Positions 14,215 through 36,210 of a DNA stretch of 36,769 nt are shown piece by piece. Below the pieces are notes generated by a model. The model searched no databases, was not told where the DNA came from, and saw only the letters and a list, made by a program, of their open reading frames with translations. The position numbers and the translations under genes are program-made. The stretch is from contig JANYEQ010000111.1 of NCBI GenBank assembly GCA_025363015.1, positions 1 to 36,769 on the forward strand. The letters run 5' to 3'. The stretch comes from Bacteroidota bacterium. Lineage in GTDB: Bacteria > Bacteroidota > Bacteroidia > B-17B0 > Aurantibacillaceae. The first letter of the stretch is position 1, and every line of letters starts with the position of its first letter.

Positions 14215-14333
14215 ACTCGTCACTCTGAACGAAATTAAAGCAGTAATAAAAACAATGTCTCACAGATAACGCAAATATCGAAGATTAAAATTATAAAATA
14301 AATCTGCCAGAACAAAAAAAACAAAAACAAAAA
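14215..14333. repeat. probable dispersed-repeat remnants in the spacer before the SMC gene
   Basis: The 119-base spacer contains TCGTCACTCTGAACGAAATT (14218-14237) and, after a gap, GTCTCACAGATAACGCAAAT followed by ATCGAAGATTAAA. These resemble degraded copies of two intergenic repeats that I recall from Bacteroidota genomes, the 'CACTCTGAGCGAAGTCGAAG' and 'TCTCGCAGATAACGCAGATT' types. Comparison is from memory. The last 30 bases are A-rich and lead into the start codon. Confidence 0.4.
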
Positions 14334-17300: not shown

Positions 17301-18017
17301 AAAGTAAAAGAGCTAAGTGGCCAAAAAGAAAAAATACAACACATTATAACGTTAATAGGTGAAGACTTTAAAAAAGCAGAGTTTGAAGAAAGTAAGTTAA
17401 TTGAATTTATTAAAATTAAAATTGAAGAAAGTGACAACAAAGTTTATAGGCTTTTAAAACGTATTGAAGAATTTAGAGAAGAGCACGGCTTAGTATATAA
17501 CGAAGGTTTATTTAATACCGATTTTGCAACGGGGCAGAAACGCGAAATTAGTGGGCGTGCTGTAAAATTATTAGAGCAATTACGCACTGCTATTAAAGAA
17601 CAAGAACAAGACGAAATTCGTTTACAAGATTTATTTGAATTAAAATTCAATATTAAAGAAGGGATGAACGAAACCGGTTGGACACATAAAATTGATAGCA
17701 TTGGTAGTACCGGAACCGATATTTTAGTAAAAGCCATTATTTATATTACCTTGTTACACGTATTTATAAAAGAAAGTAGCCACCGCAGTAGTAGCGAATT
17801 TAAAGTACATTGTATAATTGACGAGGTAGGGCAAATTAGCGCCCATTACTTACGCGAATTGTTGAAATTTGCGAAGAACCGAAACATTATGATGATTAAT
17901 GGTTTACCAAACAAATCAGGCTTAGAAAGCCATTACCGTTACACCTACCAATTCCGCAGAGAAGATACTGGCAATGTGCGTATCTTCCCTAGTATTGTAA
18001 CTGAAGTGGAGGCGTAA
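14334..18017 (+). CDS. MksB/JetC-like SMC ATPase (DUF3584-type)
   Basis: This 1227-residue protein has the full SMC layout. The N-terminal half-head has Walker A GTNNFGKT (33-40), preceded by an SMC-like strand NISNVKYADIELSGNTCFVG. Long coiled coil runs from about 225 to 860, broken near 560-620 (GKVVNEKILFRTDISPELKE), where a MukB-like small hinge would be. A second helical part leads to the C-terminal half-head with a signature-like GSTGTDILVKAIIYITLL (1124-1141) and Walker B VHCIIDE (1158-1164). The signature lacks the LSGG of canonical SMC and resembles the MukB/MksB/DUF3584 side. It should load on and extrude DNA with the two upstream subunits. No JetD/MksG nuclease gene follows. Confidence 0.85.
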   Translation: MENTRILNRIVQINISNVKYADIELSGNTCFVGTNNFGKTSLQRAILFFYSANSRGLGIAQSQKSFEEHYFRYENSYLIYEIATPEKNFFVMVYRHNKLVFRFVDSPYNPDIFLNSNDEAMKIKEIVSNIEKQGIFVSNQIDTFERYRNIIFGTETDKQLSKFYLLKGNEKYQNIPKSITNVFLSSKSSIDSRFIKDFIANSLTNENSSIKLEQVERQLRQFNEKYTDIETYVKKETTQLIELIDKKYDQVHMLKGAQMEMADKLGSSLRYAETQNESIREAAKKKEEELEVLTKAHEEQLYTINEKQNEIREEIGFYDRTIREANKKLKEYKDKNIDEAVEKNAEREKLQVELNIARREYESLTSNVANIELKYSSLIEQLRNDKAAYVNKINARTSEIFNHYNELQLLQKNEFNKRDAELKQKRDESLSEVTQEVTAKQIEFNELKSEEKVIRTTRFYEQEIKNLENELAELRAVSYKNKSERAIKQNMVQTIQREWENLETKLKTALTNQINQTNNEIIKLKNEIKEVESKLNVQHDAFYGYLEKNVKNWQNTIGKVVNEKILFRTDISPELKEATANTLYGISLNLDNVEVISKSIEEYQFEKNERLAHIRDLEEGLTKFQTANNEEKMLAADKFGKQLGEFKEDLKVLTYSLELADKREQKLQIELEDWKMKAGGEVEESLTSNRQRLNLIEEELAVLTKKKNNLLNDFNNQFDKVKIFSDERLADLKERQETEISELEVEKKNQVKDYEAKEDELSKEKESNFKSKGVDAKQLKEVEGRMKELQASLKDIEQYAQIVSDYLKDKREKFDKLPDLIQKKEEFVKSNNDLGAQLDENTGKFNLKRMELNKQKRTFDEELIEFNNGVNFFSNNFRETPVYNKYADIIERAEPKRTNYNIMDLCTQLLKNDSHFNEEYGAFQRYVNEFAGKFKIDNHFNFIIRNDATQGEYERFAQNLRSFINENKIELSIAETATQIGLVTDSIATKVKELSGQKEKIQHIITLIGEDFKKAEFEESKLIEFIKIKIEESDNKVYRLLKRIEEFREEHGLVYNEGLFNTDFATGQKREISGRAVKLLEQLRTAIKEQEQDEIRLQDLFELKFNIKEGMNETGWTHKIDSIGSTGTDILVKAIIYITLLHVFIKESSHRSSSEFKVHCIIDEVGQISAHYLRELLKFAKNRNIMMINGLPNKSGLESHYRYTYQFRREDTGNVRIFPSIVTEVEA

Positions 18018-20908: not shown

Positions 20909-22186
20909 TTAATCTTTAAATAATGGATATTTTTCCATCATGGTATTTACCTTCTTTTTAATTTTTGCTAACTCCTTAGGGTTATCTTTTTGTTTTAAAA
21001 CACTATCTATTAATTCTACCACTTTTAAGCACTCTTTTTCTTTTAAACCGCGTGTGGTAATTGCTGGCGAACCAATGCGAATACCCGATGTAACAAATGC
21101 CGATTTATCATCAAAAGGCACCATGTTTTTATTTACGGTAATATTTACTTGTTCTAAAGCCGCCAAAGCCTCTTTACCATTTAAATTTTTATTTCGTAAA
21201 TCAATTAAAAACATGTGGTTGTTAGTGCCTTTACTTACTATGTTATAGCCTAAATTTATAAAGCCTTTGGCCATGGTATTTGCATTTTTTACTAACTGAA
21301 TGCAATAGTGCATATAATCATCCGTGAGTGCTTCGCCATAAGCAATGGCTTTTGAGGCAATCACATGTTCTAAAGGGCCCCCTTGCGTACCAGGGAAAAC
21401 AGCCATATCTAATAAGTGACTCATCATTTTAGTTTCGCCTTTAAGTGTTTTTTCACCAAAGGGATTTTCAAAATCTTTTCCCATCATAATCATTCCACCA
21501 CGCGGACCACGCAATGTTTTATGAGTAGTAGTAGTTACAATATGGCAATGTGGAATAGGATCGTTTAATATACCTTTTGCAATTAAACCGCTTGGATGTG
21601 AAATATCGGCCAATAAAATAGCGCCAACCATATCGGCAATTTTACGGAAACGCTCATAATCCCAATCGCGCGAATAAGCGCTAGCACCACAAATAATCAT
21701 TTTTGGAGAATGTGTTTTCGCCATTTTTTCAATGGCGTTATAATCAATTAAGCCCGTTTCTTTTTCAACGCCATAAAAGGTAGCATGGTATAATTTACCC
21801 GAAAAATTTACAGGAGAACCATGCGTTAAATGCCCACCATGGCTTAAATCAAAACCTAAAATGGTGTCGCCAGGCTTTAAGCAAGCAAGCATTACTGCGG
21901 CGTTTGCTTGTGCACCTGAGTGTGGCTGCACATTTACCCATGCGGCACCAAATAATTGTTTGGCGCGGTCTATGGCTAATTGCTCCACTTTATCTACTAC
22001 CTCGCAACCGCCATAATAACGTTTAAATGGCAAACCTTCGGCATATTTATTGGTTAACACACTACCCATGGCTTGCATTACTTGTTTACTTACGTAATTT
22101 TCGCTGGCAATCAACTCAATTCCTTGAGTTTGACGATGTTCTTCTTCTTTAATTAATTTAAAAATAGTGCTATCTCTTTTTATCAT
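20909..22186 (-). CDS. glyA: serine hydroxymethyltransferase
   Basis: This 425-residue PLP enzyme converts serine and tetrahydrofolate to glycine and 5,10-methylene-tetrahydrofolate in the cytoplasm. The family marks are [36 protein letters not shown], the SHGGHLTHG loop, [12 protein letters not shown] and the PLP-lysine motif [15 protein letters not shown] with Lys223. Length is normal for bacterial SHMT. It is embedded 8 bases downstream of the exosortase-associated gene, an unusual partner for a one-carbon enzyme, and likely shares its transcript. Confidence 0.98.
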
Positions 22187-22194
22187 ATTCTTTT

Positions 22195-22671
22195 TTATTT
22201 TATATGTTGAAACGATTTATTGTATAATTTATACGAAGCAATTAAAATTAAGCAAATAATAGGCGATTGGACTAAGCCTAATAGCCAGCGGCTAAAGGCA
22301 TACTCATCATCTTGTAAACGTTGGTTTATAAGTAAGCCATACGCCATTATTACTGCGGCTAAAGTTACTAAAACCAAATAAGAAATAGTAAGATATTTTA
22401 ATAATTTTTTTTGAGCGCATATTTTAATAATGGCTAAGTAACTTAGGGCGTAAAAAACAAGTACCCATAACAGCGTATAAATGTATTTTGAATAGTATAA
22501 TGTTTTGTAAGAAAAAGTTGTAAAAATATACATACAGTTTGGTATAGGTAGCGTGGTATGATTGTAATATTTTTGAAACATAATATTGTTTAAGTTTACA
22601 AAAAAAAACTCGCGCCAATAGCCAAAACAGCCAAACACCAGCAAAAAAAACAACAACCATTTAATTTTCAT
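22195..22671 (-). CDS. exosortase-associated membrane protein
   Basis: About 158 residues with four predicted transmembrane segments ([54 protein letters not shown], and a C-terminal one near [12 protein letters not shown]). The preferred start is ATG at 22671, which overlaps the exosortase gene end by 11 bases; an upstream ATG at 22710 would add 13 residues and a 50-base overlap. Small membrane proteins regularly follow Bacteroidota exosortases (for example XrtF systems), and this one occupies that place, but I cannot name a specific family from sequence alone. Confidence 0.7.
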
Positions 22672-23218
22672 GGGCGTTTGTGGTTTGTTTAAGGTTTGTT
22701 TTAGAGGCATATTTGTTTACCCAAATCATCCATAACAAAAAAATAAAAGCGTATACTATAAATGTAAAGGTATAGGTATGATTAAAACTAAGGCTGTAGG
22801 GCGAGTAATAGGCAATTATAACTAACGCAATTACCCTTATAATATTTAAAATATGAATAAGTAAAATACCCAATGGTATAAACCATAGCTTACTTTTTTG
22901 ATGCCCAGGATACGCAAATACAAAAACCGAAAATAACGAAAATAACGTAATAGCATTGCAATTAGAACCCACCCAAACCCCATTACTACCATCAATACCA
23001 ATAACTTGATAATCTCTATCTTGTAACACGGTAAAGGTTTTATAGCCTACTAATTTTATAAAATATTCAGCGGTAGAAATAATACTGCCTATAAATTTTT
23101 GGTCGTAAAAGGTATATTTTTTTACAATAAATTGATAAATAAGATATAACACAAAATAGATGAGAGATGCTAAAACAACAAACCTTGCAAAGGCATTTTG
23201 TTTAAACGAAACCCTCAT
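22661..23218 (-). CDS. exosortase/archaeosortase family transpeptidase (XrtX-like)
   Basis: This 185-residue inner-membrane protein has five or six hydrophobic segments and the exosortase catalytic triad: Cys87 in GSNCNAITLF, Arg128 in HILNIIRVIALV and His147 in FNHTYTF. Exosortases cleave substrates bearing C-terminal signals of motif-TM-basic type and may attach the product elsewhere. Length is short, as in Bacteroidota types rather than the larger proteobacterial EpsH-like enzymes. The neighbour on the N-terminal side encodes a matching small substrate with a PIDGG motif, and an EPS locus lies divergently, both as expected. The specific label XrtX is from memory. Confidence 0.9.
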   Translation of the reverse strand: MRVSFKQNAFARFVVLASLIYFVLYLIYQFIVKKYTFYDQKFIGSIISTAEYFIKLVGYKTFTVLQDRDYQVIGIDGSNGVWVGSNCNAITLFSLFSVFVFAYPGHQKSKLWFIPLGILLIHILNIIRVIALVIIAYYSPYSLSFNHTYTFTFIVYAFIFLLWMIWVNKYASKTNLKQTTNAHEN

Positions 23219-23232
23219 TTTTAACGTATAGT

Positions 23233-23442
23233 TTAAGAAACTGTTTTTTGATTTTTACGTAAATCGTAAATTTTTTTAATACCATAAAGCCCACCAGCAA
23301 TAATTAAAAAAACGATGCCGCCATCAATAGGCACACAAGGTGGTGGCCAACAGCCTGGGCTTCCGCCAGGGGGTGGCGGTGGCGCTGCAAAAATTACAGT
23401 ATTACAAACAAAACAAAATATAGTAATTAAAAGTGACTTCAT
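23233..23442 (-). CDS. PIDGG-motif (PID-CTERM-like) mini-substrate of the exosortase
   Basis: 69 residues from the ATG at 23442; an upstream ATG at 23481 would add 13 residues in front of the signal peptide and is less likely. Residues 1-20 are a signal peptide ending VIFAA. Next come PPPPPGGSPGCWPPPCV, the motif PIDGG (38-42), a hydrophobic stretch IVFLIIAGGLYGI and a basic tail KKIYDLRKNQK. This is a complete exosortase sorting signal (motif, TM, basic tail). If both ends are processed, only about 17-20 residues of a Pro/Gly-rich, two-cysteine peptide remain. It matches what I recall as the PID-CTERM family. It is 14 bases upstream of the exosortase gene. Confidence 0.85.
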   Translation of the reverse strand: MKSLLITIFCFVCNTVIFAAPPPPPGGSPGCWPPPCVPIDGGIVFLIIAGGLYGIKKIYDLRKNQKTVS

Positions 23443-23518
23443 TTTTTTATTTAATTGATTTTGAGATGCGTAAAGATACAAATATTACAACACAAAAAAA
23501 ATATTTAATAAAAATACC

Positions 23519-23542: not shown

Positions 23543-25909
23543 GTGACCGCTACTAAAAAACAAGCTATTGTATCGCAAAAAGATTTAAGTCTTTTATGGC
23601 GAATTGTTAAATCTAATTGGTGGGTGCCATTGGTGGTTTTACCTATACTATACACCATTGGCTCGTTTTATGTGTATCGTTTAACAAACGTTTACCAAGC
23701 CAGTACTCAATTATTATTAAAAGTAAACGATACCTATTACCAAGGCAATGTACTAAGCGATGAGGGGTTTTATAGCTATGGTTCCTATGTTGATAATTTA
23801 AACGAGGTAAGGGTGCTACAATCTTATGATTTAGCTTATCAGGTAGTTAATAAACTAAAAGATAAGCTTCAAGTATCGTACTTTATTGTTGGAAAAGTGC
23901 GTAAAACCGAGCAGTTTAGAGGTATCCCCTTTAAAATAAAAATTACCTCTATTAATTCGGCGTTTTACGAACAAACCTTTGATTTTAAAATTATTGATTA
24001 TAATAATTACGAAATATCATTTTTACAAAACGGCACTCCACAAACAAAAAAAGGCAAATTTGATATCGATTTAATCGATCTGGATTTAAACATTAACGTT
24101 TCGCGTGAGGGCACTTTTTCTACCGAAACCGTTGAAGCCTTAAAAACTATTTTTTATCAATTTTCTATTCATAGTACAGATTATTTGGTTTCATCCATAC
24201 AAAACCAAATGACCATTAATAACCCAGAGTACACCAACATTTTAGAGGTAAACTTAAAAGATATTGTACCTGAGCGCGCTGTATTAATTTTAGATACTTT
24301 AAATTTAGTGTATTCCAACAACCGCTTAAAAACAAAATTTGAGTTAAACGAGCGCACCATTGTATATATTGATAGACAATTAGATGAAATTAGTTACTCC
24401 TTAAAAAGCATTGAAGATACTATGCAAAACTATAAGGAAAAAAGATCTATTATCGACTTAAATTGGGAACAAAGCGATTTTTTAAGTAAAATTTCGCGCT
24501 ACGATAATGAAAAATCTAACCAACAATTACAATTAGCCTCCTTATCTGATTTAGAAAAATACATTATTGAAGATAAAGACCCCCAATTTTTACCCCCAGG
24601 TGTTTTTGTAGCCGAAAAAAGTGGTTTTATGACGCAAGCTGTTGCCGAATTATATAACAAGCAAATTGAATTAAACAAAGTATACAATGTAGCCAAAGAA
24701 AACAATCCTTTAATCAAAGATCTAAAAGCTAACATAAAAAAAGTAAAACAAGATTTATTAGTTTACATCAATAATACCCGAAAAGCTACCATTTTAAATA
24801 TGGATAACATTGATAGAGAAATTTATAAATACATAAACGAAGCAAAATTAATACCTGGTAAGCAGCGCGATGTACTTAATATTCAACGCAAAGCCAACGT
24901 AAACGAGCAATTATATAATTTTTTACTCCAAAAACGAGCCAGTACAAAAATTGCCAGAGCAAGTATTATTCCCGATATTAAAGTAATTGAATCGCCGCGC
25001 GACAGAGGTGTTGTAGAGCCAGATAAACCAGCCATACAAAAAAAGGTAATGTCGTTTGGTATTTTACTATCTATTATTATTATTATTTTACGAACGTTTT
25101 TCTTATCAAAAATTACCTCTGTTGATCATTTAAAAGAATTAACTGATTTGCCCTTGGTAGGCGTTTTTCCTTACCTTAAAGATATTGGAACAGAGGGTAT
25201 TGCTGTGGAGCAAAATCCAAATTCATTAATATCCGAATCGTTTCGTAATTTTAGAACCAACTTACAGTATACCAACGTTGACAACGCTGCAAAAACGTAC
25301 TTAGTTACCTCCTTTTCGCCTAGCGAGGGTAAAACATTTACGAGTATTAACTTAGCAAGTATTTTGGCGCGCAGTGGTAAAAAAACCCTGTTATTAGAGT
25401 TAGATTTACACAAACCCCGAATTTATAAGCGCTTTGGCTTACCATTACAAACCATTGGTATTACAACTTGTATTACTGGGCAAAACACCTTTGATGAAAT
25501 TGTAACTCCCACTCAAATACCAAATTTATTTTGTTTGTTTTGTGGCCCTATTCCACCCAACCCCTCAGAGTTTGTATTATCTGGAAAATTAAAAGAAATT
25601 ATAGATACAGCTAAACAGCAATTTGATTATGTGATTATTGATACCCCACCAGCTGGTATTTTGTCCGACTCTATTTACTTAATTCAATACGTTGATTCTG
25701 CTATTTTTGTATTAAATACCCGAACCAGCTCTAAAAAAGTAATTACATTTATTGAAAACATTATTGCCGATAATAATATTAAAAATATGCTACTGGTATT
25801 AAATGGTGTTAACCGTGTGGGCAAGCGTTACTATTACCAAGGCTATGGCTATAGTTATGGCTATGGCTACGGTTATGGTTATGGCAAAGGCTATGGTTAC
25901 AAAAAATAA
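23543..25909 (+). CDS. Wzc-like polysaccharide copolymerase / BY-type tyrosine kinase
   Basis: A 788-residue inner-membrane protein with a GTG start. An N-terminal transmembrane helix (about 28-46) and a second (502-520) flank a large periplasmic Wzz-type domain with coiled coils (about 265-305 and 365-415). The cytoplasmic kinase domain (from about 560) has Walker A SFSPSEGKTF (Lys597), Walker A' LLLELDLHKP (616-625) and Walker B YVIIDTPP. In Walker A' the usual first Asp is Glu619 and the usual Arg is His623, while Asp621 is kept. The C-terminal tail has 12 tyrosines between 763 and 786 as Gly-Tyr repeats, the autophosphorylation cluster. It should control chain length and assembly of the EPS encoded downstream. 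Confidence 0.93.
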   Translation: MTATKKQAIVSQKDLSLLWRIVKSNWWVPLVVLPILYTIGSFYVYRLTNVYQASTQLLLKVNDTYYQGNVLSDEGFYSYGSYVDNLNEVRVLQSYDLAYQVVNKLKDKLQVSYFIVGKVRKTEQFRGIPFKIKITSINSAFYEQTFDFKIIDYNNYEISFLQNGTPQTKKGKFDIDLIDLDLNINVSREGTFSTETVEALKTIFYQFSIHSTDYLVSSIQNQMTINNPEYTNILEVNLKDIVPERAVLILDTLNLVYSNNRLKTKFELNERTIVYIDRQLDEISYSLKSIEDTMQNYKEKRSIIDLNWEQSDFLSKISRYDNEKSNQQLQLASLSDLEKYIIEDKDPQFLPPGVFVAEKSGFMTQAVAELYNKQIELNKVYNVAKENNPLIKDLKANIKKVKQDLLVYINNTRKATILNMDNIDREIYKYINEAKLIPGKQRDVLNIQRKANVNEQLYNFLLQKRASTKIARASIIPDIKVIESPRDRGVVEPDKPAIQKKVMSFGILLSIIIIILRTFFLSKITSVDHLKELTDLPLVGVFPYLKDIGTEGIAVEQNPNSLISESFRNFRTNLQYTNVDNAAKTYLVTSFSPSEGKTFTSINLASILARSGKKTLLLELDLHKPRIYKRFGLPLQTIGITTCITGQNTFDEIVTPTQIPNLFCLFCGPIPPNPSEFVLSGKLKEIIDTAKQQFDYVIIDTPPAGILSDSIYLIQYVDSAIFVLNTRTSSKKVITFIENIIADNNIKNMLLVLNGVNRVGKRYYYQGYGYSYGYGYGYGYGKGYGYKK
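25829..25906 (+). repeat. Gly-Tyr codon repeat in the 3' end of the Wzc-like gene
   Basis: Tandem 6-base units of GGCTAT, GGTTAT and GGCTAC type, with single interruptions (AGT, AAA), encode the tyrosine-rich tail. The number of units could vary by slippage, changing the number of phosphorylatable tyrosines. Confidence 0.75.
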
Positions 25910-26683: not shown

Positions 26684-27175
26684 TTGAACTGGAAAGCCCT
26701 ATACGTTGCTTCACGCTCCGAAAAAAAAGTAGCCTTGGCCTTACAAAATTTAGGTTTAGAGAGTTATATACCCTTAAAAACCGAAAAAAAACAATGGAGC
26801 GACCGAAAAAAAATAATTACCTCACCCTTAATAAATGGTTACGTGTTTGTAAAAACAAATAATCAAAATAGAGACTTGGTATTTAAAGTAAATGGCGTTA
26901 TACAATACGTTCGATTAAACAGTACCGATGCCATTATTAAAGATGTTGAAATTGAAATTTTAAAATCTGTTGAGCAAAAAGGCTATTATGTTGAAGGAAA
27001 ATTTGATTCCAACTTTGATATTGGACAAACTACCTTAATTACCCAAGGCACATTTAAAGGTTACAAAGGCATTATAAAAACTAAAGTAAACGAAACCCTG
27101 TACTATATTTTAATTGAAAGTATAGGCTATAGTTTAACCATAAAAGTACCCGCTGAAATTTTACAAAAACAATAA
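26684..27175 (+). CDS. UpxY/NusG-like transcription antiterminator of the EPS locus
   Basis: A 163-residue NusG paralogue. The N-terminal NGN-like domain begins NWKALYVASRSEKKVALALQ, continues LESYIPLKTEKKQWSDRKK and PLINGYVFVKT, and is followed by a KOW-like domain (about 105-163; TTLITQGTFKGYKGIIKTKV). Such UpxY proteins, known from Bacteroides capsule loci, prevent early termination in the leader of the polysaccharide operon. The start must be TTG at 26684 (or a non-standard codon) because a stop lies 4 codons upstream in frame and the WKALYV strand begins immediately. It is followed 1 base later by the epimerase gene. Confidence 0.9.
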   Translation: MNWKALYVASRSEKKVALALQNLGLESYIPLKTEKKQWSDRKKIITSPLINGYVFVKTNNQNRDLVFKVNGVIQYVRLNSTDAIIKDVEIEILKSVEQKGYYVEGKFDSNFDIGQTTLITQGTFKGYKGIIKTKVNETLYYILIESIGYSLTIKVPAEILQKQ

Positions 27176-27176
27176 C

Positions 27177-28142
27177 GTGATTGCTGAATTACTCACAAAA
27201 AAAATTTTAATAACAGGTGGTGCTGGCTTTATTGGCAGTAATATTGTTGATTATTTAATATCAATAAATCATCCAAATATTACCGTTTTAGATAATTTAC
27301 AAACCGGCTCACTATCAAATATAGAAAAGCATTTAAATAAAATTAATTTTATTAAGGGCGATATAACAAATTTTGTAACCTGTTTAAATGCTACAAAAAA
27401 TTGTGATATTATTTTACATCAAGCCGCACTAGGCAGTGTACCACGTAGTATTGAAAAACCGTTAGATACGCATAATACAAACGTTACAGGCTTTATTAAT
27501 ATGCTTGAGGCTGCAAAACAAAATAATGTAAAACGTTTTGTGTATGCATCATCATCATCTGTTTATGGTAATGATACAACCTTGCCTAAAATAGAAGAAC
27601 ACGTTGGCACCCCACTTTCGCCCTATGCTGTGAGCAAAAAAACAAACGAATTGTATGCAGATGTATTTTCAAATTTATATAATTTACAAATTATAGGTTT
27701 GCGTTATTTTAATGTATTTGGTCCTAAACAAAACCCTAATGGCCCATATGCTGCCGTAATACCTATATTTATAAATAATATTTTAAATAATAAACAATCG
27801 CATATTTTTGGTGATGGTACAAACCAACGCGATTTTACCTTTGTAAATAATGTGGTAAATGCCAATTTATTAGCAGCAACCACACAAAATAAACACGCTT
27901 TAAATCAAGTATATAATATTGCTTACGGCTCTACAAAAAGCATTAACAATTTATACGCATTTATTAAACAAAAATTAAACTCAAACATAAGCTCAAATTT
28001 TATGCCTGCCCGAGTTGGTGAGATTAAAGATAGCTTTGCCTCTATTACAAAAGCTAAACAATTATTAAATTATAACCCAATCGTTAATTTAGAAGAAGGT
28101 ATTGAACTTACTATAGATTGGTACAAACAAAATAAATTTTAA
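27177..28142 (+). CDS. UDP-N-acetylglucosamine 4-epimerase family SDR (WbpP/TviC-like)
   Basis: This 321-residue extended short-chain dehydrogenase binds NAD(H) with GGAGFIG (14-20) and has the catalytic Tyr150-x3-Lys154 in PYAVSKKTNE, with the supporting Ser stretch SSSSVYG. HQAALGSVPRSIEKP is characteristic of the WbpP/TviC/Gne 4-epimerases that act on UDP-GlcNAc, UDP-GalNAc or their uronic acids. It provides a sugar nucleotide for the EPS repeat unit. It starts with GTG at 27177, one base after the antiterminator stop, and ends by overlapping hisH by one base. Confidence 0.9.
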   Translation: MIAELLTKKILITGGAGFIGSNIVDYLISINHPNITVLDNLQTGSLSNIEKHLNKINFIKGDITNFVTCLNATKNCDIILHQAALGSVPRSIEKPLDTHNTNVTGFINMLEAAKQNNVKRFVYASSSSVYGNDTTLPKIEEHVGTPLSPYAVSKKTNELYADVFSNLYNLQIIGLRYFNVFGPKQNPNGPYAAVIPIFINNILNNKQSHIFGDGTNQRDFTFVNNVVNANLLAATTQNKHALNQVYNIAYGSTKSINNLYAFIKQKLNSNISSNFMPARVGEIKDSFASITKAKQLLNYNPIVNLEEGIELTIDWYKQNKF

Positions 28143-28753
28143 TGATTGTAATTGTTGATTATGGCATTGGTAATTTAGCATCTGTTTTAAATATGTTTAA
28201 AAAAATAGGTGTTAAAGATGTTACAATTTCTAACGACAATAAAGTAATTCAAAATGCCACAAAATTACTTTTACCTGGCGTTGGTGCCTTTGATGCAGCA
28301 ATGACAAATCTTGAAAAATCGGGCTTACTGCCTATTTTAAATAAAAAAGTGTTAGAAGAAAAAGTTCCTATTTTGGGAATTTGTTTAGGAATGCAGTTAC
28401 TTACAAAACAAAGCCAAGAGGGTGTAAAACAAGGTTTAGGTTGGATTGATGCAGAGACAGTAAAATTTAATTTACCTCCCGAATTAAAATTAAAAGTACC
28501 CCACATGGGTTGGAATTATATTAAAGTTACAAAAAAAAATCCTCTAATTAGTTTAGAAGAAAAAAATCGTTTTTATTTTGTACACTCTTATTATGTAAAA
28601 TGTTTTAACGAAAGCCAATCTATTGCCACCAGTAATTTTGGAACCGATTTTACCTGTATGGTAAATAATAATAATATTTACGGGGCGCAATTTCACCCCG
28701 AAAAAAGTTTAAAATTTGGAATGAAATTGTTGCAAAATTTTGCTAATCTATAA
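28142..28753 (+). CDS. hisH: HisH-like glutamine amidotransferase subunit (sugar amidination type)
   Basis: A 203-residue class I glutamine amidotransferase with Cys81 (GICLGMQ), His185 and Glu187 (GAQFHPEKS) and the oxyanion-strand PGVGAF. It is homologous to HisH, which hydrolyses glutamine to feed ammonia to HisF. No other his gene is present, and it lies within an EPS locus with a HisF whose catalytic Asp11 is lost. That matches the HisH2/HisF2 pairs of O-antigen loci, which supply ammonia to a WbpG/PseA-type sugar amidotransferase. Start ATG at 28142 overlaps the epimerase stop. Confidence 0.88.
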   Translation: MIVIVDYGIGNLASVLNMFKKIGVKDVTISNDNKVIQNATKLLLPGVGAFDAAMTNLEKSGLLPILNKKVLEEKVPILGICLGMQLLTKQSQEGVKQGLGWIDAETVKFNLPPELKLKVPHMGWNYIKVTKKNPLISLEEKNRFYFVHSYYVKCFNESQSIATSNFGTDFTCMVNNNNIYGAQFHPEKSLKFGMKLLQNFANL

Positions 28754-28786
28754 AACAATGTTTATAATCCATCTTCCATTTATATT

Positions 28787-29545
28787 TTGGCTTTAAAACG
28801 CATTATACCTTGTTTATTATACGATGGAAGCGGGTTAGTTAAAACCGTTAAGTTTAAAAACCCATCTTACATTGGCGACCCCATTAATGCCATAAAAATA
28901 TTTAACGACAAAGAAGTAGATGAATTAATTGTGTTAGATATTAATGCATCAAAACAAAAACGTAAACCTAATTTTGATAAAATTGCCGATATGGCATCCG
29001 AAGCATTTATGCCCTTTGCTTATGGTGGTGGCGTAAAAACTTACGATGATTTTATAACCTTATTTAAAATTGGAGTTGAAAAAGTTATAGTTAATTCATT
29101 AATACAAGAAAACCCTCAACTTATAAAAAAAGTAATTACAAGTTATGGTGCACAGGCAGTAGTGGGCTGTATTGATTTTAAAAAATCATTCTTAGGTACA
29201 AAAGCCCCTTATTCATATATTGGAAATAAAATACAATTATCATTAATTGATTATGCAAACTATTTGGCACAAGAAATTGGTGTTGGCGAAATAATGCTTC
29301 AAAGCGTTGATAATGATGGCACCTGGCAAGGCTACGATTATCAAACTACCGAACAAATTTTAAATGCCATTGAGGTGCCCATAATTGCTTGTGGTGGTTG
29401 TGGTAGTGTAGATGATTTAAAGAAAATTTTATATCAAAGCAATGCAAATGCCGCTGCAATTGGTAGTATGGCGGTATATAGTAAAAAAGGAATGGGAGTT
29501 TTAATAAATTTTCCGAAAAGGGAATCCATTATAATTGAAAACTAA
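28787..29545 (+). CDS. HisF-like TIM-barrel subunit (sugar amidination type, not histidine synthesis)
   Basis: This 252-residue (beta/alpha)8 protein aligns with HisF. The start is TTG at 28787. In HisF the residues Asp11 and Asp130 are catalytic. Here position 11 is Leu (RIIPCLLYDGSGLVK), while Asp130 is kept (VVGCIDFKK). The phosphate-site strands FAYGGGVK and IIACGGCGS remain. Loss of Asp11 fits the HisF2/AglZ branch in sugar-amidination loci, where the barrel is an ammonia conduit or shares an adapted reaction. It is a complete gene, partner of the HisH-like subunit 33 bases upstream. The expected third partner, a WbpG/PseA-like amidotransferase, is not in the window. Confidence 0.85.
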   Translation: MALKRIIPCLLYDGSGLVKTVKFKNPSYIGDPINAIKIFNDKEVDELIVLDINASKQKRKPNFDKIADMASEAFMPFAYGGGVKTYDDFITLFKIGVEKVIVNSLIQENPQLIKKVITSYGAQAVVGCIDFKKSFLGTKAPYSYIGNKIQLSLIDYANYLAQEIGVGEIMLQSVDNDGTWQGYDYQTTEQILNAIEVPIIACGGCGSVDDLKKILYQSNANAAAIGSMAVYSKKGMGVLINFPKRESIIIEN

Positions 29546-30408
29546 TGGCAGTAAAATCAAATAGTTCAGAGCAAAATTGGGATATTGTTGTAAAACCCAA
29601 ACAGTCTCTTTTTAATTTAAACCTAAAAGAAGTCTGGGCTTACAAAGACCTAATTTTTTTAATGGTAAAGCGCGATATAACTGCCCAATACAAACAAACA
29701 ATTTTAGGCCCGGTATGGATGTTGATACAACCCATATTTACTACCATAGTTTTTACTATTACTTTCGGCTACATTGCTAAAATTAAAACCGATGGGGTAC
29801 CCTCTATGCTATTTTATATGATTGGATTAACATTTTGGACTTATTTTGCCGATTGTTTAAATAAAACAGCATCTACCTTTACAGCCAATGCTAGTATTTT
29901 TGGTAAAGTATATTTTCCGCGCCTTGTAATACCCATCTCTGTAATTATTTCAAATATTATTAAACTTCTAATTCAATTTACACTTTTACTACTATTCTGG
30001 TTTTATTTTCTTATTAAAACAAATACCCTAACGCCACAATATCATTTACTTATTTTATTACCTTTTTTATTATTAATGCTAGCATTACTTGGCTTGGCAT
30101 TTGGTTTAATTGCATCATCATTAACTACTAAGTATCGCGATTTTACATTTCTTTTGGGCTTTGGCGTTCAACTATTTATGTATGGTAGTTGCATTATTTT
30201 TCCCATTTCATTAACAGGCATTTATAGTAAAATATTAATGTATAACCCTGTTGCCGCAATAATTGAAGCTATAAGATTTATTTTTACTGGGAGTGGTTAT
30301 TTTTCTATTCAATATTTGAGTATTGCATTTTTATTTACCACTTTATTGATGGCTTTTGCACTAATTATTTTTAATAAAACCGAAAAATCCTTTATGGATA
30401 CCGTATAA
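29545..30408 (+). CDS. Wzm-like ABC-2 permease of polysaccharide export
   Basis: A 287-residue membrane protein of the ABC-2 family. After an N-terminal amphipathic part with KQTILGPVWMLIQPIFTTIVFT, about six membrane segments follow. LTFWTYFADCLNKTASTFTANASIFGKVYFPRLVIPIS and the loop TTKYRDF are typical of KpsM/Wzm transporters, which move completed polysaccharide across the inner membrane. ATG at 29545 overlaps the stop of the HisF-like gene. The Wzt-like ATPase gene follows 9 bases later. The pair means the polymer is exported by an ABC route. Confidence 0.93.
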   Translation: MAVKSNSSEQNWDIVVKPKQSLFNLNLKEVWAYKDLIFLMVKRDITAQYKQTILGPVWMLIQPIFTTIVFTITFGYIAKIKTDGVPSMLFYMIGLTFWTYFADCLNKTASTFTANASIFGKVYFPRLVIPISVIISNIIKLLIQFTLLLLFWFYFLIKTNTLTPQYHLLILLPFLLLMLALLGLAFGLIASSLTTKYRDFTFLLGFGVQLFMYGSCIIFPISLTGIYSKILMYNPVAAIIEAIRFIFTGSGYFSIQYLSIAFLFTTLLMAFALIIFNKTEKSFMDTV

Positions 30409-30417
30409 ACATACTTT

Positions 30418-31707
30418 ATGTTAAACCCCGTAATACAAATAAATAATTTAGGCAAACAATACCGCTTGGGCGAAGTAAGTGGAAAAACAATTGCCGATGA
30501 TTTTAAAAGATGGATACATAAAATAAAGGGGAAAGAAGATCCATTTTTAAAAATAGGTGACGAAAATGATAGAACAAAAAATGGAAACTCTGATTATATT
30601 TGGGCGTTAAAAGATATTAGTTTCTCTGTTAACCAAGGTGATGTATTGGGTATTATTGGAAAAAATGGCGCAGGTAAATCCACCCTTTTAAAAATTCTCT
30701 CTAGAACTACATCTCCCTCAATTGGCGAATATAAAATTAAAGGCCGAGTAGCTAGCTTACTTGAAGTTGGTACTGGCTTTCACCCCGATTTAACTGGTCG
30801 TGAAAATGTATTTTTAAACGGGGCTATTTTAGGAATGACTAGGCACGAAATTAAAAATCAATTTGATGAAATAGTTGATTTTAGTGGCGTTGAACGATAC
30901 ATTGATACTCCTGTAAAACGATACTCATCGGGGATGTATGTGCGTCTGGCCTTTGCTGTTGCGGCACACTTAAATCCTGAAATTTTAATAGTAGATGAAG
31001 TGTTGGCTGTTGGCGATGCCGAATTTCAAAAAAAATGTTTAGGGAAAATGAAAGACGTGAGCGAAAAAGGCAGAACTGTTATATTTGTTAGCCATAACCT
31101 ATCCGCTGTGAGAACTTTATGTAATAAAGTTTTATACTTACAAAATGGCAAGTTTGTTGAAATTGGCGAAACTTCGGCAGTAATAGATAAATATTTAGCT
31201 GGCGATAAAATTAACACCATTAATGGCCTTATACCTCAAAATGCTAGTACTTATCAAAACAACGATGCGAAATTTTTATCATTTAATCTACTAAATAAAA
31301 AAAATGAAACGATTGATACCTTGTATTATGAACAAAACTTTATTATCGAATTTTCGTTACAGGTTAATCGAACAATCCCAAAAGCTATTATCGATTTTTC
31401 AATAGGGACATTAGATACCCGTTATACATATACCTCAACTTTTGACACCAATGCAAATTATATAAAATTAGAACAAGGCATTTATTCTATTCGGTTACAA
31501 TTATCACCCAAAATAACTCCAGGTACTTACACATTTTATATGGGAGTTCACGACTTTGAAAATGGCGGTTTAACTCTTGATTTTATTGAAAAAATTGGTG
31601 TAGTAACTATACTTCAGTTTAAAGAAATATCAGGAGAGAAATTTCCACTTAATACTTCTTTTGGCAATGTGAGAATAGACGGGAAATGGGATATAAACAA
31701 AATATAA
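30418..31707 (+). CDS. Wzt-like ATPase of polysaccharide export, with C-terminal carbohydrate-binding domain
   Basis: A 429-residue two-domain protein. Residues 1-250 are an ABC ATPase with Walker A GKNGAGKST (81-89), signature YSSGMYVRLAF (169-179) and Walker B ILIVDEVLAVGD (189-200), plus the switch His in VSHNLSAV. An unusual insertion-like stretch (about 25-60) precedes the Walker A. Residues 265-429 match the position of the Wzt C-terminal beta-sandwich, which recognises the terminal modification of the polymer before export. The last gene with local-type base composition, ending 4 bases before the next. Confidence 0.93.
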   Translation: MLNPVIQINNLGKQYRLGEVSGKTIADDFKRWIHKIKGKEDPFLKIGDENDRTKNGNSDYIWALKDISFSVNQGDVLGIIGKNGAGKSTLLKILSRTTSPSIGEYKIKGRVASLLEVGTGFHPDLTGRENVFLNGAILGMTRHEIKNQFDEIVDFSGVERYIDTPVKRYSSGMYVRLAFAVAAHLNPEILIVDEVLAVGDAEFQKKCLGKMKDVSEKGRTVIFVSHNLSAVRTLCNKVLYLQNGKFVEIGETSAVIDKYLAGDKINTINGLIPQNASTYQNNDAKFLSFNLLNKKNETIDTLYYEQNFIIEFSLQVNRTIPKAIIDFSIGTLDTRYTYTSTFDTNANYIKLEQGIYSIRLQLSPKITPGTYTFYMGVHDFENGGLTLDFIEKIGVVTILQFKEISGEKFPLNTSFGNVRIDGKWDINKI

Positions 31708-31711
31708 AATT

Positions 31712-32680
31712 ATGGATTTAAAAAATAGTAAAATATTAGTTATAGGCGGTGCCGGCTTCATAGGAAGCTATGTTGTAGCCGAACTTTTAAAAGAACCTGT
31801 TGGTGAGATTTTTGTTTATGACAATTTTGCAAGAGGAAAAAAAGAATATTTAAATGAGTCTTTGAAAGACACACGCTGTAAAATATTTCCGATCGGTGGA
31901 GACATCAGAGAAATTGATATTTTGAACAAAGCCATGGAAGGGATGGATTATGTAATTTGTCTTTCAGCCATGTGGTTATTGCATTGCAAAGATTTTCCAA
32001 GAACCGCTTTTGATGTTAACATTGCTGGAACATTTAATGTTCTGGAAGCCTGCGTAAACAATAAAATAAAAAAATTGATCTGGTCCTCCTCTGCCTCTGT
32101 ATATGGTGATGCTGTTCAATTACCAATGACCGAAGAGCATCCTTTCAATAATAAAAATTTTTACGGCGCTACAAAAATTGCCGGTGAAGCAATGGCAACA
32201 GCTTTTAATGACAGGTACGGACTAAAAGTAATTGGTTTACGATACATGAATGTGTATGGCCCGCATCAGGATCAAACTGCAGCATACACAGGCGTTGTAC
32301 CTATCATGCTTAATAAAATTGATGCGAATGAAGCGCCGGTAATTAACGGTGATGGCAGTCAGGCCTATGACTTTATTTATGTTGAAGATGTTGCACGTTG
32401 TAATGTTCTGGCATTAAAAAGCGATACCGACTATGGATTTTACAATGTTGGCACCGAGGTTCAAACCTCAATTAAAGAACTTTGCGATCTTATTCTTAAA
32501 CTAAAAAGTTCTGACCTAAAAGTAACGTATAAGCCGTATAGCGCAGATGACGCAAGGGCCTTGGTTCAAAACCGAATTGGTTCTGCTGTAAAAGCAGAAA
32601 AAGAATTAGGTTTTAAGTACAAATACAATTTAAAAGACGGATTGCTTAAACTTATAGATTGGAGAAACAAGAATAAATAA
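31712..32680 (+). CDS. NAD-dependent sugar epimerase/dehydratase (extended SDR)
   Basis: A 322-residue extended SDR. NAD-binding motif GGAGFIG (12-18), SSSASVYG, and catalytic Tyr151-x3-Lys155 in FYGATKIAGE are clear. The stretch LSAMWLLHCKDFPRTAFDVN replaces the usual LAA..V.R...P motif and I associate it with SDR enzymes that travel with AsnB-type amidotransferases in O-antigen/EPS loci. The exact substrate is unknown. It shares a one-base overlap with the AsnB gene. It is clearly richer in G+C and in non-local codons than the preceding genes. Confidence 0.88.
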   Translation: MDLKNSKILVIGGAGFIGSYVVAELLKEPVGEIFVYDNFARGKKEYLNESLKDTRCKIFPIGGDIREIDILNKAMEGMDYVICLSAMWLLHCKDFPRTAFDVNIAGTFNVLEACVNNKIKKLIWSSSASVYGDAVQLPMTEEHPFNNKNFYGATKIAGEAMATAFNDRYGLKVIGLRYMNVYGPHQDQTAAYTGVVPIMLNKIDANEAPVINGDGSQAYDFIYVEDVARCNVLALKSDTDYGFYNVGTEVQTSIKELCDLILKLKSSDLKVTYKPYSADDARALVQNRIGSAVKAEKELGFKYKYNLKDGLLKLIDWRNKNK

Positions 32681-34557
32681 TGTGCGGAATAACCGGAATA
32701 TTTAATCTAACAGGGAAAGCGGCTACCCTTGAGCAAATTAAGCAAATGGCAAATGCTATTGCACATCGCGGTCCCGATGGAGAGGGATATTTTACCGAAG
32801 ATTCCTTGGCATTAGGCCATAAGCGCCTTGCAATTTTGGATACTTCTGATAAAGGGCTCCAACCAATGATGAGTAAGAACAGAGAATGGATAATTACTTT
32901 TAATGGCTGCATTTATAATTTTCATGAACTAAAAAAAGAACTATTATTAAAAGGACATACTTTTATTTCTGAAAGCGACACGGAAGTAATAGTTGAAGGT
33001 TTAGTTGAGTACGGAATAGACTTTTTCAAAAGGCTTAACGGCATGTTTGCAATTGGAGCTTATAATAAAATCTCAAAAAAATTGTACCTGAGCCGAGATA
33101 GGCACGGCGTAAAACCCTTGTATTATTATTGCGCTAATGGAACGCTTCTTTTTGCCTCTGAAATAAAAGGCATACTAGCCTTTCCAGGATTTAAAAACGA
33201 ATTAAATAAACACGCTCTTAACGAATATTTTACTTTCCAAAATCAGTTCACTTACACTACATTATTTAAGGACGTTTATATGCTTCCACCTGCAAATACA
33301 GTTTGCATAGACTCAAACACCAAGGAGGTTTTGCATAACCCTTGGTGGGATTATGATTTTACGGAGCCTGATGAAACAATGACTTTTGAAGATGCTGTTT
33401 CCGAAACAAAAAGATTGTTTCAGCAAGCCGTTTCAAGGCAAATGTTAGCCGATGTTCCCGTAGGGTCATATCTTTCCGGCGGCATGGATTCAGGTTCGAT
33501 TACCGCTATTGCTTCCTCTCACGTTGAAAGGCTTACAACGTTTACCTGTGGATTTGATATGAGCCAGGTAACAGGTGTAGAAGCTAATTATGATGAAAGA
33601 AGAGATGCCGAGCTAATGGCTAACTTCTTCAAGACCGAACATTACGAGCAGATTATGAATGCAGGTGATCTCAGATGGAGCCTTCCAAAAGTAGTTTATC
33701 ATTTGGAAGATCTTCGTGTTGGTATGAGTTATCCGAATTATTATATAGCTAGGCTCGCGAGCAAATTTGTAAAAGTTTGTCTTCAAGGTACAGGCGGAGA
33801 TGAACTTTACGGAGGATATCCATGGAGATACTATCGTATATTTAAATCACTCGACCGCAAAGATTTTTTTAACCAGTATTACAATTTTTGGCAACGTTTG
33901 GTTCCTGACAATGAAAAAAATCAATTATTTAATAGCAATGTCTTAAATAAGGTCGATTTAAATGAGCCAAGGAATATATTTGAAAGAGTATTTTTATTTA
34001 ATTCAAAATTAAAATATGAAACACCTGAGCAACACATTCAAAACTCTTTGTATTTCGAAATTAAAACATTTTTACCCGGCTTATTGATTGTTGGAGACAA
34101 ATTAAGCATGGCCAGCGGATTAGAAGAACGTTTTCCATTTCTTGATAATGACCTAGTGAACTTCGCTCAAAAAATACCGGTTAGGCATAAATTAGGCAAT
34201 TTAGCGTCAATGAAAAAAATTGATGAGAACGCTTTTGGGCCGAAAAAACAATCATATAAGGAACATGATGATGGGAAGAACGTGTTACGGAAGGCTATGA
34301 TGGATTTTTTACCGGAGAAGATTATTAACCGAAAAAAACAAGGCTTTTCTGCGCCGGACGAGAGTTGGTACAGAGGTGAAAATGCTGATTACGTAAAAGA
34401 TCTGTTATTAAACAGCAAAACAATTTCAACCGAATTTATAAATAAAGATTATATCCAAAAGATTATTAACGAACATATTGATCAAAAAATCAATCACAGA
34501 TTACTGATCTGGAGTTTTATGAATTTTGAAATGTGGTGTCAAAAATTTTTAAATTGA
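32680..34557 (+). CDS. AsnB-type glutamine amidotransferase (asparagine synthase family)
   Basis: A 625-residue two-domain amidotransferase. The N-terminal Ntn glutaminase starts at Cys2 (MCGITGIFNL) with AHRGPDGEG and the Gly/Arg loops. In FNGCIYNFHEL, Cys77 stands where asparagine synthetase has Glu. The C-terminal synthetase domain has the PP-loop SGGMDS (266-271), TGGDELYGGY, and a substrate region LSMASGLEERFPFLDNDLV. In polysaccharide loci such enzymes often amidate a sugar carboxylate rather than aspartate; with the neighbouring SDR genes that is more likely here than asparagine synthesis. No frameshift; length is normal. Confidence 0.88.
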   Translation: MCGITGIFNLTGKAATLEQIKQMANAIAHRGPDGEGYFTEDSLALGHKRLAILDTSDKGLQPMMSKNREWIITFNGCIYNFHELKKELLLKGHTFISESDTEVIVEGLVEYGIDFFKRLNGMFAIGAYNKISKKLYLSRDRHGVKPLYYYCANGTLLFASEIKGILAFPGFKNELNKHALNEYFTFQNQFTYTTLFKDVYMLPPANTVCIDSNTKEVLHNPWWDYDFTEPDETMTFEDAVSETKRLFQQAVSRQMLADVPVGSYLSGGMDSGSITAIASSHVERLTTFTCGFDMSQVTGVEANYDERRDAELMANFFKTEHYEQIMNAGDLRWSLPKVVYHLEDLRVGMSYPNYYIARLASKFVKVCLQGTGGDELYGGYPWRYYRIFKSLDRKDFFNQYYNFWQRLVPDNEKNQLFNSNVLNKVDLNEPRNIFERVFLFNSKLKYETPEQHIQNSLYFEIKTFLPGLLIVGDKLSMASGLEERFPFLDNDLVNFAQKIPVRHKLGNLASMKKIDENAFGPKKQSYKEHDDGKNVLRKAMMDFLPEKIINRKKQGFSAPDESWYRGENADYVKDLLLNSKTISTEFINKDYIQKIINEHIDQKINHRLLIWSFMNFEMWCQKFLN

Positions 34558-35444
34558 AAATACTCATAACCGGCGCTAAAGGTTACATTGGCTCACATTT
34601 AGTAAATGAATTAGCGAAGGACAATTCAGTTCATCTGTTTTGTGTATGCAATTCAACTCCGTTTGCAGAAGTTGAGGCAAATAATGTCACTTATTTAAAA
34701 GCTGATTTATCTACAGACGATTTTATAAAGGAGTTGCCTGAAAAAATAGATGTCATAATTCATCTGGCTCAATCTAATAATTACAGAAATTTTCCGGAAA
34801 TGGCCGAAGACATTTTTAATGTGAATATAAGATCGACACAATTATTACTTCATTGGTCTATAAAAGCAGGAGTAAAAAAATTTATTTTTAGCTCAACAGG
34901 AAATGTATATAAACAACAAAATAAATTATTGAGTGAAAGTGACCTCTGCGAACCAAATAGCTATTATGGCGCTAGTAAATACGCAGCCGAACAAATTATT
35001 AAACCTTATCAAAAATATTTCAACGTAACCCTGCTTAGAATTTTTGGAGTTTATGGCCCTGGTCAGAAAAATATGACAGTCCCAAACATTATAAATAAGG
35101 TTGTTACAAATGAAGAAATTTCACTAGCAAATAATGAAGGCCTATTTTTTACACCTCTTTACATTGATGATTGTGTTTTAATGATAATACAAATACTTAA
35201 AGCAACTTTCCAAGCTCAAAATAACGTCTATAATATATCAGGTAATGAAAAGGTGCATTTAGGAATTTTGGTAGAAATTATTAGTCAAATAACGTCTGTT
35301 AAACCTAAAATAAAAGTAACCGAAGATAACACAGTGTATCTTATGGGCGATGCCTCATCATTTTTAAAAGAATTTAACTATAAAATAAAAACGCCTTTTA
35401 TACAAGGCATTGAACAAACAATTAAATATGAAACAATTAAATAA
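34554..35444 (+). CDS. NAD-dependent epimerase/dehydratase (extended SDR)
   Basis: A 296-residue SDR sugar enzyme. The TTG start at 34554 is favoured because it overlaps the AsnB stop (TTGA) and puts the strand KILITGAKGYIG right at the N-terminus; a GTG at 34533 would add 7 residues. It has the NAD loop GAKGYIG, LAQSNNYRNFPEMAED, SSTGNVYKQQN and the catalytic pair in YYGASKYAAE. The family includes UDP-sugar epimerases and reductases; I cannot name the substrate. Gene end overlaps the next gene by 17 bases. Confidence 0.85.
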   Translation: MKILITGAKGYIGSHLVNELAKDNSVHLFCVCNSTPFAEVEANNVTYLKADLSTDDFIKELPEKIDVIIHLAQSNNYRNFPEMAEDIFNVNIRSTQLLLHWSIKAGVKKFIFSSTGNVYKQQNKLLSESDLCEPNSYYGASKYAAEQIIKPYQKYFNVTLLRIFGVYGPGQKNMTVPNIINKVVTNEEISLANNEGLFFTPLYIDDCVLMIIQILKATFQAQNNVYNISGNEKVHLGILVEIISQITSVKPKIKVTEDNTVYLMGDASSFLKEFNYKIKTPFIQGIEQTIKYETIK

Positions 35445-36210
35445 AGACTGGCTTTCTTGTCCGGTAACCAAAGAATCGCTTAAAGAAAATGAAGGTGAGC
35501 TAACTTCCTCAAAATATTCCTTTAGCAAAAAAGATGGGTTCTGGAATTTTATTCCACAAACTTTGGAAGAGTTGAATGCCCCTCTTTGGAAAGTGTGGAA
35601 TCAACTTCAGGATAACGGAGTTTCGTCTTATAATAATTCTCCTACGAATAATTTAGGTGTCGGGCCAAGAAAAGACTTTATGCAATTTGCTGAATTCTGC
35701 AAATTAAAAGGGCTGATTCTGGATGTTGGTGTAGGTCCCCAAAAAGCTCCTACTCATATAGAGTTTAACACCAACCCCGATGTAACATTTGTTGGTTTGG
35801 ATCCGCTTGCAGGTGCTCAACCAAGAGATTTTATATTTGTGCAAGGATTAGGTGAATATTTACCTTTTAAAAATGAGTTGTTTGATCAGGTTCTTTTTGT
35901 AACATCTCTTGATCACTTTATTGATCCTGTAATTGCTCTAGAAGAGGCAAAACGTGTTGTAAAAAATACTGGCAGCGTTTGTGTTTGGCTTGGTGAAAAG
36001 GATAAAAATGCACCTAAACCATCCGTTAGTCCTGACTGGTATAAAGCCCTTCAAATTCCGGAAGGAGCCGAAGATCCTTTTCACTATAGAAGATTTAGCG
36101 TTGATGACTTTAAAACATTTTTACCCAAAGCGGGCCTTAAAATAACTGAAGAGGAAGTGCATGTTGTTGACCAATGGAGAAAAAACTGCTTTTTTAGATT
36201 AGAAAAATAA
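35428..36210 (+). CDS. SAM-dependent methyltransferase
   Basis: About 260 residues with the ATG at 35428; a TTG at 35410 would add six. The N-terminal 35 residues (WLSCPVTKESLKENEG, KYSFSKKDGFWNFIP) resemble a Trm112-like or zinc-ribbon leader that has lost all but one cysteine. The rest is a class I (Methyltransf_11-like) domain with motif I ILDVGVGPQ, VTFVGLDPL, LPFKNELFDQVLFVTSLDHF and EAKRVVKNTGSVCVWL. It probably methylates a sugar of the EPS. The ORF overlaps the SDR gene by 17 bases. Confidence 0.82.
   Translation: MKQLNKDWLSCPVTKESLKENEGELTSSKYSFSKKDGFWNFIPQTLEELNAPLWKVWNQLQDNGVSSYNNSPTNNLGVGPRKDFMQFAEFCKLKGLILDVGVGPQKAPTHIEFNTNPDVTFVGLDPLAGAQPRDFIFVQGLGEYLPFKNELFDQVLFVTSLDHFIDPVIALEEAKRVVKNTGSVCVWLGEKDKNAPKPSVSPDWYKALQIPEGAEDPFHYRRFSVDDFKTFLPKAGLKITEEEVHVVDQWRKNCFFRLEK

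Follow-up and report, generated by a model that had tools for sequence, protein, structure and literature searches.

Two NCBIfam models, NF046080 (PID_CTERM) and NF046081 (exosortase X, XrtX), already describe a C-terminal sorting tag and an enzyme of the kind studied here, and both genes of our locus exceed the curated cut-offs of these models, which places them in the same kind. Across the literature searched, no paper used the term "PID-CTERM" or dealt with PID cargo or XrtX, and none offered biochemical data on XrtX or a PID-CTERM protein or described the minimal cargo, the cysteine loop or how this loop is linked to XrtX; the tag and the enzyme are already annotated in NCBIfam. A related system is PEP-CTERM/EpsH (XrtA), which, as described in PMC1569441, shares with our locus a signal peptide, a short motif, a transmembrane segment, a basic tail, an exosortase homologue and exopolysaccharide (EPS) genes. 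It differs in its motif (PEP versus PID here), in its number of substrates (a median of eight versus one here) and in that the substrate here has almost no cargo. Archaeosortase A (ArtA) and rhombosortase/GlyGly-CTERM combine C-terminal processing with a lipid-type moiety (PMC7157517, PMC6219818) and serve as the model for the step proposed below; their known substrates are full-size surface proteins or enzymes, unlike our micro-protein, and rhombosortase, being rhomboid-like, belongs to a different protease family from XrtX. Finally, XrtF of Flavobacterium johnsoniae (Fjoh_1448, TIGR04128) is an enzyme related to XrtX; xrtF and a neighbouring gene are reported to be needed for biofilm and colonisation (PMC10936215), and the targets of XrtF were stated in 2025 to be not yet known (PMC12188702).

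A PID-CTERM gene beside exosortase X

The window, that is, the whole stretch of 36,769 nucleotides analysed, holds on its minus strand a coding sequence of 69 aa at 23233..23442 (ATG at 23442, stop at 23235-23233), as judged by its translation, its match to NF046080 and its orthologues. The frame is open upstream as far as a TTG at 23481, and ATG 23442 is preferred as the start because the signal peptide begins there. The translation reads, in order, a Sec signal peptide MKSLLITIFCFVCNTVIFA (23386..23442, heuristically predicted to be cut after residue 19), an 18-residue, proline-rich stretch with two cysteines, APPPPPGGSPGCWPPPCV (23332..23385, from the translation and the same heuristic cut), the sorting motif PIDGG (23317..23331), and a transmembrane segment IVFLIIAGGLYGI with a basic tail KKIYDLRKNQKTVS (together 23236..23316) that ends at the stop codon. 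The exported stretch includes the conserved, presumably loop-forming CWPPPC (23335..23352), identified from alignment column counts and from the number and spacing of its cysteines. The tail matches NF046080, a model that spans only the 25-position sorting tag, over residues 37-60 (E 2.2e-10, 40.1 bits, cut-off 26), and since this score exceeds the curated cut-off and the gene is conserved in the family, the match is not a chance one. No PEP-CTERM model was among the matches to the micro-protein, whose motif is PIDGG and not Pro-Glu-Pro; a search of solved structures by sequence returned none that matched, and scans of the locus for repeats, promoters and terminators and with Rfam gave nothing of note. 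In the source genome (3.3 Mb in 143 contigs), profile search places a single PID_CTERM match and a single exosortase match above cut-off; the comparison with other PIDGG-type genes proposed in the initial annotation yielded no second one at that level. On reading, the sole other PID_CTERM match (E 3.25) proved to be no PID protein, and the frame of the sole other exosortase match (E 0.435) holds two stops.

The locus is a member of the annotated kind, PID_CTERM followed by XrtX, the latter being encoded on the minus strand at 22661..23218 (185 aa; NF046081, 176.9 bits, cut-off 170). Against the XrtF model TIGR04128 it scores 87.4 bits, with a cut-off of 90. XrtX keeps Cys87, Arg128 and His147 as candidate catalytic residues; in an alignment of 221 relatives, taken from samples that overlap, they are present in 221, 221 and 215 sequences, respectively; we take the conserved Cys, Arg and His to be the catalytic triad of exosortases. 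A third minus-strand gene (22195..22710, 171 aa), with homologues in 68 loci, occupies the position of the XrtX-associated membrane protein, an agreement that is positional only, as its score against NF046082 is 18.1 bits, below the cut-off of 75 (a relative at locus L083 reaches 43.1 bits). The syntenic downstream gene encodes a serine hydroxymethyltransferase (SHMT; 20909..22186, minus strand, by profile match) that is probably unrelated in function to the PID-XrtX genes. Divergently, on the plus strand, lies a Wzc-type polysaccharide co-polymerase/tyrosine kinase (23543..25909; TIGR01007, 149.8 bits; Wzz and GNVR domains), followed at 26684..36210 by a UpxY-type antiterminator and surface-polysaccharide genes (epimerases, ABC/Wzt export, amidotransferases) assigned by profile matches. 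The block PID-XrtX-membrane protein-SHMT, with divergent Wzc, is conserved in the family, and the Wzc gene adjoins the PID gene in most family loci.

Elsewhere in the window, a class-I glutamine amidotransferase and a HisF-like protein stand beside sugar epimerases and an asparagine-synthase-type amidotransferase (28142-34557), a set that suggests an amidated or amidino sugar. At 13606-18017 lies a probable Mks-type condensin set, made up of an MksE-like condensin subunit (E 3.4e-30) and, after it, a DUF3584 protein of 1227 aa.

Cargo length and conservation of the exported peptide

The cargo of about 17 residues claimed in the initial annotation was measured at 18, from the heuristic cut to PIDGG, and the homologue search with cargo lengths suggested there was carried out. 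Minimal cargo turned out to be no peculiarity of this gene: as a rule, the PID proteins examined have next to none. Specifically, the stretch from signal peptide to PID measures 10-29 residues in 73/73 family rows (median 19, heuristic cut). A class sample of 395 genomes (the class being, as we read it, Bacteroidia) has PID_CTERM above cut-off in 159, and 105 loci from the best-scoring part of these matches were used for cargo; the 102 of these best-scoring loci with a scored cut have a median of 19 residues, with 99 at 30 or fewer and the exceptions being L100 (56), L115 (48) and L167 (36). Outside the 102, three loci in which no cut was found (L142, L152, L179) have about 10 residues by eye. 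L167, in genome G194, carries a lipobox cysteine and is apparently an N-terminal lipoprotein with a C-terminal exosortase tag. It should be noted that Gln at +1 (64/102 class and 11/73 family rows) is counted with an upward bias and is not used as evidence, since the second cut heuristic rewards it on account of the Bacteroidetes Q-rule as given in PMC10653852.

These observations were extended with a CWPPPC-PIDGG coding pattern, which occurs at no fewer than 118 loci in named genomes; at each of the 118 listed, which overlap the family sample, the frame encodes 55-82 aa when length is taken from the last plausible start codon. Among Cys-free relatives, some stretches have only about nine residues. 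Four PID matches in long frames were read: three (L078, L079, L080) are weak matches inside longer proteins and were rejected as long-cargo PID proteins, and the fourth, locus L188 of genome G269, is a 995-aa frame with a PID-like tag at its end, the only long-cargo candidate among the matches listed, to which the survey extends, so that others may exist among weak long-frame matches. Overall, the PID tag can carry cargo and mostly does not. Genomes G143 and G269 hold 5 and 4 PID_CTERM matches (L086, L098, L111, L112, L114, L117, L124, L141), and, apart from the 995-aa frame, their PID proteins are short, Cys-free and of similar design. As a control on cargo size, only seven of the 128 T9SS tail matches in the source genome lie in frames <150 aa; short frames are therefore not a trait of C-terminal tags in this genome.

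Within the GTDB family of the source genome (Aurantibacillaceae), PID_CTERM matches occur in 75/87 genomes (E <=0.1), above cut-off in 68. The window and 72 other family loci (73/75) fit a CW..C..PID pattern, which presupposes the cysteines; the remaining two, L074 and L076, read CWPPPCIPADNG, and the cysteine pair is thus present in 75/75. Across the 73 aligned family sequences, the P and D of PID and the L at +8 in the transmembrane segment are each found in 73/73, the second Cys column is filled in 72/73, and the first Cys and Trp columns in 68/73 each, being shifted in the others. CWPPPC is nearly invariant in these sequences and recurs in other families. Moreover, the prolines of CWPPPC and PID are written in the 73 family sequences with all four synonymous codons (CCT, CCA, CCC, CCG); residues that stay constant as their codons vary point clearly to selection at the protein level on the peptide itself.

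Linkage to the exosortase and the cysteine pair

The constant adjacency to the enzyme assumed in the initial annotation held for the most part, with a few exceptions. XrtX is directly next to the PID gene in 69/73 family loci (L059 being counted as adjacent by gene coordinates), and in the other four, all from one genus (L065, L071, L073, L077), XrtX lies elsewhere in the genome and the PID gene still stands beside the divergent Wzc; the two of these detached XrtX loci that were read, L083 and L085 (~3.5 kb each), show no PID gene. A PID gene beside Wzc without XrtX ties the peptide to the polysaccharide locus, and this link could also be passive synteny or retention. Of the 87 family genomes, 75 have PID and 77 XrtX: 75 have both, 10 neither, and two, only 56% and 58% complete, XrtX alone. 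Across the 395 class genomes, 176 have both, 8 PID only, 44 an XrtX-like enzyme only and 167 neither (Fisher p 7e-58; thresholds E 0.01 for PID and E 1e-12 for XrtX-like), counts to be read knowing that at E 1e-12 the XrtX model also catches XrtF among other related exosortases, with PID partners that PID_CTERM often misses. Where XrtX is above cut-off, PID is present in 96 of 102 class genomes and went undetected in 6. Among the 118 listed CWPPPC-PIDGG loci, an Xrt gene is adjacent in 103, elsewhere in the locus in 5 and absent within <=8 kb in 10. With one PID gene and one exosortase in the genome, their adjacency and this co-occurrence, the prediction that the micro-protein is the dedicated substrate of the neighbouring exosortase is strengthened.

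Cysteines were scored as two in 71 family rows and three in 2, and in the class as two in 54, one in 1 and none in 47. Four rows were corrected by hand: in L054 and L057 the third cysteine belongs to the signal peptide, L190 was cut inside its own loop, and L167 was scored Cys-free only since its single cysteine, the lipobox, precedes the cut. Mature peptides, so corrected, carry two cysteines or none, and this all-or-none pairing suggests a loop closed by a disulfide, found for the most part in the XrtX branch. Four residues separate the two cysteines in 108/125 rows and 3, 5, 6 or 7 in the others; a metal site is disfavoured by this variation in spacing. The rows behind the cysteine parity are related by descent and not phylogenetically independent.

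The pair also follows the enzyme. Over 45 class loci, substrates with the Cys pair accompany 34/36 adjacent enzymes scoring at least 160 bits with a family-built model and 0/9 of the lower-scoring ones; the count as scored was 33/36, becoming 34/36 after L122 was re-read, and the two exceptions without a pair are L092 and L111. On a 55-enzyme tree, in which some branches are long and unsure, the Cys-pair label changes 4 times, versus a mean of 11.1 when shuffled. Two loci, L094 and L175, speak against a link that is strict: both have the Cys pair, and no Xrt gene was detected in either.

Proposed processing, alternatives and XrtF

We consider the most probable reading, at roughly 55%, to be that the micro-protein is a dedicated XrtX substrate whose peptide is cut off and transferred to an acceptor of the envelope or EPS, where the disulfide-closed CWPPPC loop would be displayed. 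Once the Sec signal peptide is removed, the proline-rich 18 residues would lie outside the inner membrane, anchored there by the PIDGG-transmembrane-basic tail; XrtX would then cut at or near PIDGG, through Cys87/Arg128/His147, and join the peptide's new C-terminus to an acceptor. This acceptor would probably come from the surface polysaccharide, whose wzc export gene lies divergently alongside, in the form of a lipid or glycan. What the cell would then display on its envelope or EPS is no folded protein but a small ligand or tether: a short, rigid peptide, poorly accessible to proteases, with its CWPPPC loop closed by a disulfide and its C-terminus capped by the acceptor. We infer cleavage and transfer, the cut site, the acceptor, the disulfide and a possible function in EPS retention. 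Cleavage plus transfer is proposed by analogy, because ArtA substrates are lipid-anchored (PMC7157517), rhombosortase cleaves and conjugates its substrates (PMC6219818) and an EPS-related role has been proposed for PEP-CTERM proteins (PMC12188702, PMC9850573); mutants in exosortase genes are reported to lose biofilm (PMC10936215, PMC12188702). A role of the peptide in EPS or the envelope is plausible given the divergent Wzc and the adjacency to Wzc without XrtX in four loci. Against this reading stand the 44/395 class genomes with an Xrt-like enzyme and no PID and the 8 with PID and no Xrt-like enzyme, as well as the Cys-free stretches of about nine residues, which ill fit a ligand and are compatible with a mere spacer.

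Such short stretches, of which QPNNPSNPV is an example, and the largely Pro stretches of the XrtF type fit a reading in which the peptide has no function of its own and is a sacrificial or carrier substrate, serving as primer or cap while the real product is a modified lipid or glycan; the proline stretch would then merely keep PIDGG clear of the membrane. We regard this as doubtful, given that the near-invariant CWPPPC, recurring with high-scoring XrtX, exceeds what a spacer needs. The micro-protein might also be no peptide donor but a small bitopic protein that partners or regulates XrtX or the Wzc export complex, with a tail that serves only for docking: almost nothing is exported, the transmembrane segment is well conserved, the gene usually adjoins both XrtX and Wzc, and it is present in single copy in the source genome. 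This is unlikely in our view, as the full tripartite sorting tag is retained; the presence in other genomes of up to 5 copies, or of this tag, next to an exosortase, on cargo that is longer and dissimilar, fits substrates better than a subunit. It is very improbable that the peptide, freed after both cleavages, acts as an extracellular signal, as the initial annotation had considered. Its size is like that of peptide pheromones, it would be secreted by Sec and it may form a loop, but a strain-specific pheromone is not expected to be near-invariant, as CWPPPC is over the family, recurring beyond it, and the conserved block PID-XrtX-membrane protein-SHMT/Wzc, considered as the locus only, contains no receptor gene.

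The reading of the micro-protein as an exosortase substrate was extended to XrtF in an XrtF-bearing family (f54). In ten of its genomes XrtF is above cut-off in 10/10 and PID_CTERM in 4/10, and a PID-like micro-protein was recognised by eye in 7/10. A profile built from the tails of these seven was run on 199 f54 genomes at a lax E 0.1 and matched in 119; XrtF is likewise found in 119, with both in 110, 9 and 9 alone and 71 with neither (Fisher p 2e-33), a co-occurrence that lies inside one family and for part of which shared ancestry may account. Without six seed genomes the counts are 104 both, 9 PID only, 9 XrtF only and 71 neither, and without seven weak or odd-frame matches, set aside afterwards, they are 109, 3, 10 and 77. 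The 30 best f54 loci (seeds included, five of the substrates read by eye) have Cys-free stretches such as QTPPPPGPPPPPGFPIDGG, largely Pro, and in 29/30 the micro-protein gene stands beside the same two conserved genes and not beside XrtF; we take these two neighbours, recognised by eye, to be riboflavin synthase-like and PdxA-like. Unlike those of the XrtX type, the 30 XrtF-type substrates are without the cysteine pair, and 29 of them are encoded away from the enzyme gene. Their co-occurrence with XrtF makes these cargo-poor PID micro-proteins candidate XrtF targets, as read in f54 genomes.

Some f54 genomes have a second exosortase beside PID proteins with longer, genome-specific and sometimes Cys-rich or repetitive cargo (L375-L383). 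This second, below-cut-off enzyme was seen in 12 f54 genomes; 9/12 were read, with a PID protein of longer, dissimilar cargo adjacent in 9/9, and two of the nine enzymes, when scanned, scored 127 and 130 bits with the XrtX model (cut-off 170).

Taken together, we tentatively suggest, at clearly less than even odds, that in Bacteroidota XrtX and XrtF belong to a single system and that this system would mainly produce, in place of a sorted protein, a very short capped polyproline peptide, disulfide-closed in the XrtX branch and covalently held on surface polysaccharide or lipid; near-empty PID micro-proteins would then be the XrtF targets and the reason why xrtF mutants lose biofilm. Sorting enzymes are usually seen as handlers of proteins; the conserved substrate studied here consists almost wholly of sorting signal. 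A tag that is annotated yet lacks an explanation would thereby become a small, defined peptide amenable to synthesis and to tracing by mass spectrometry, and the candidate targets offer an answer, open to testing, to what publications of 2024 and 2025 left unsettled, namely what XrtF, needed for biofilm and surface colonisation in F. johnsoniae, acts on.
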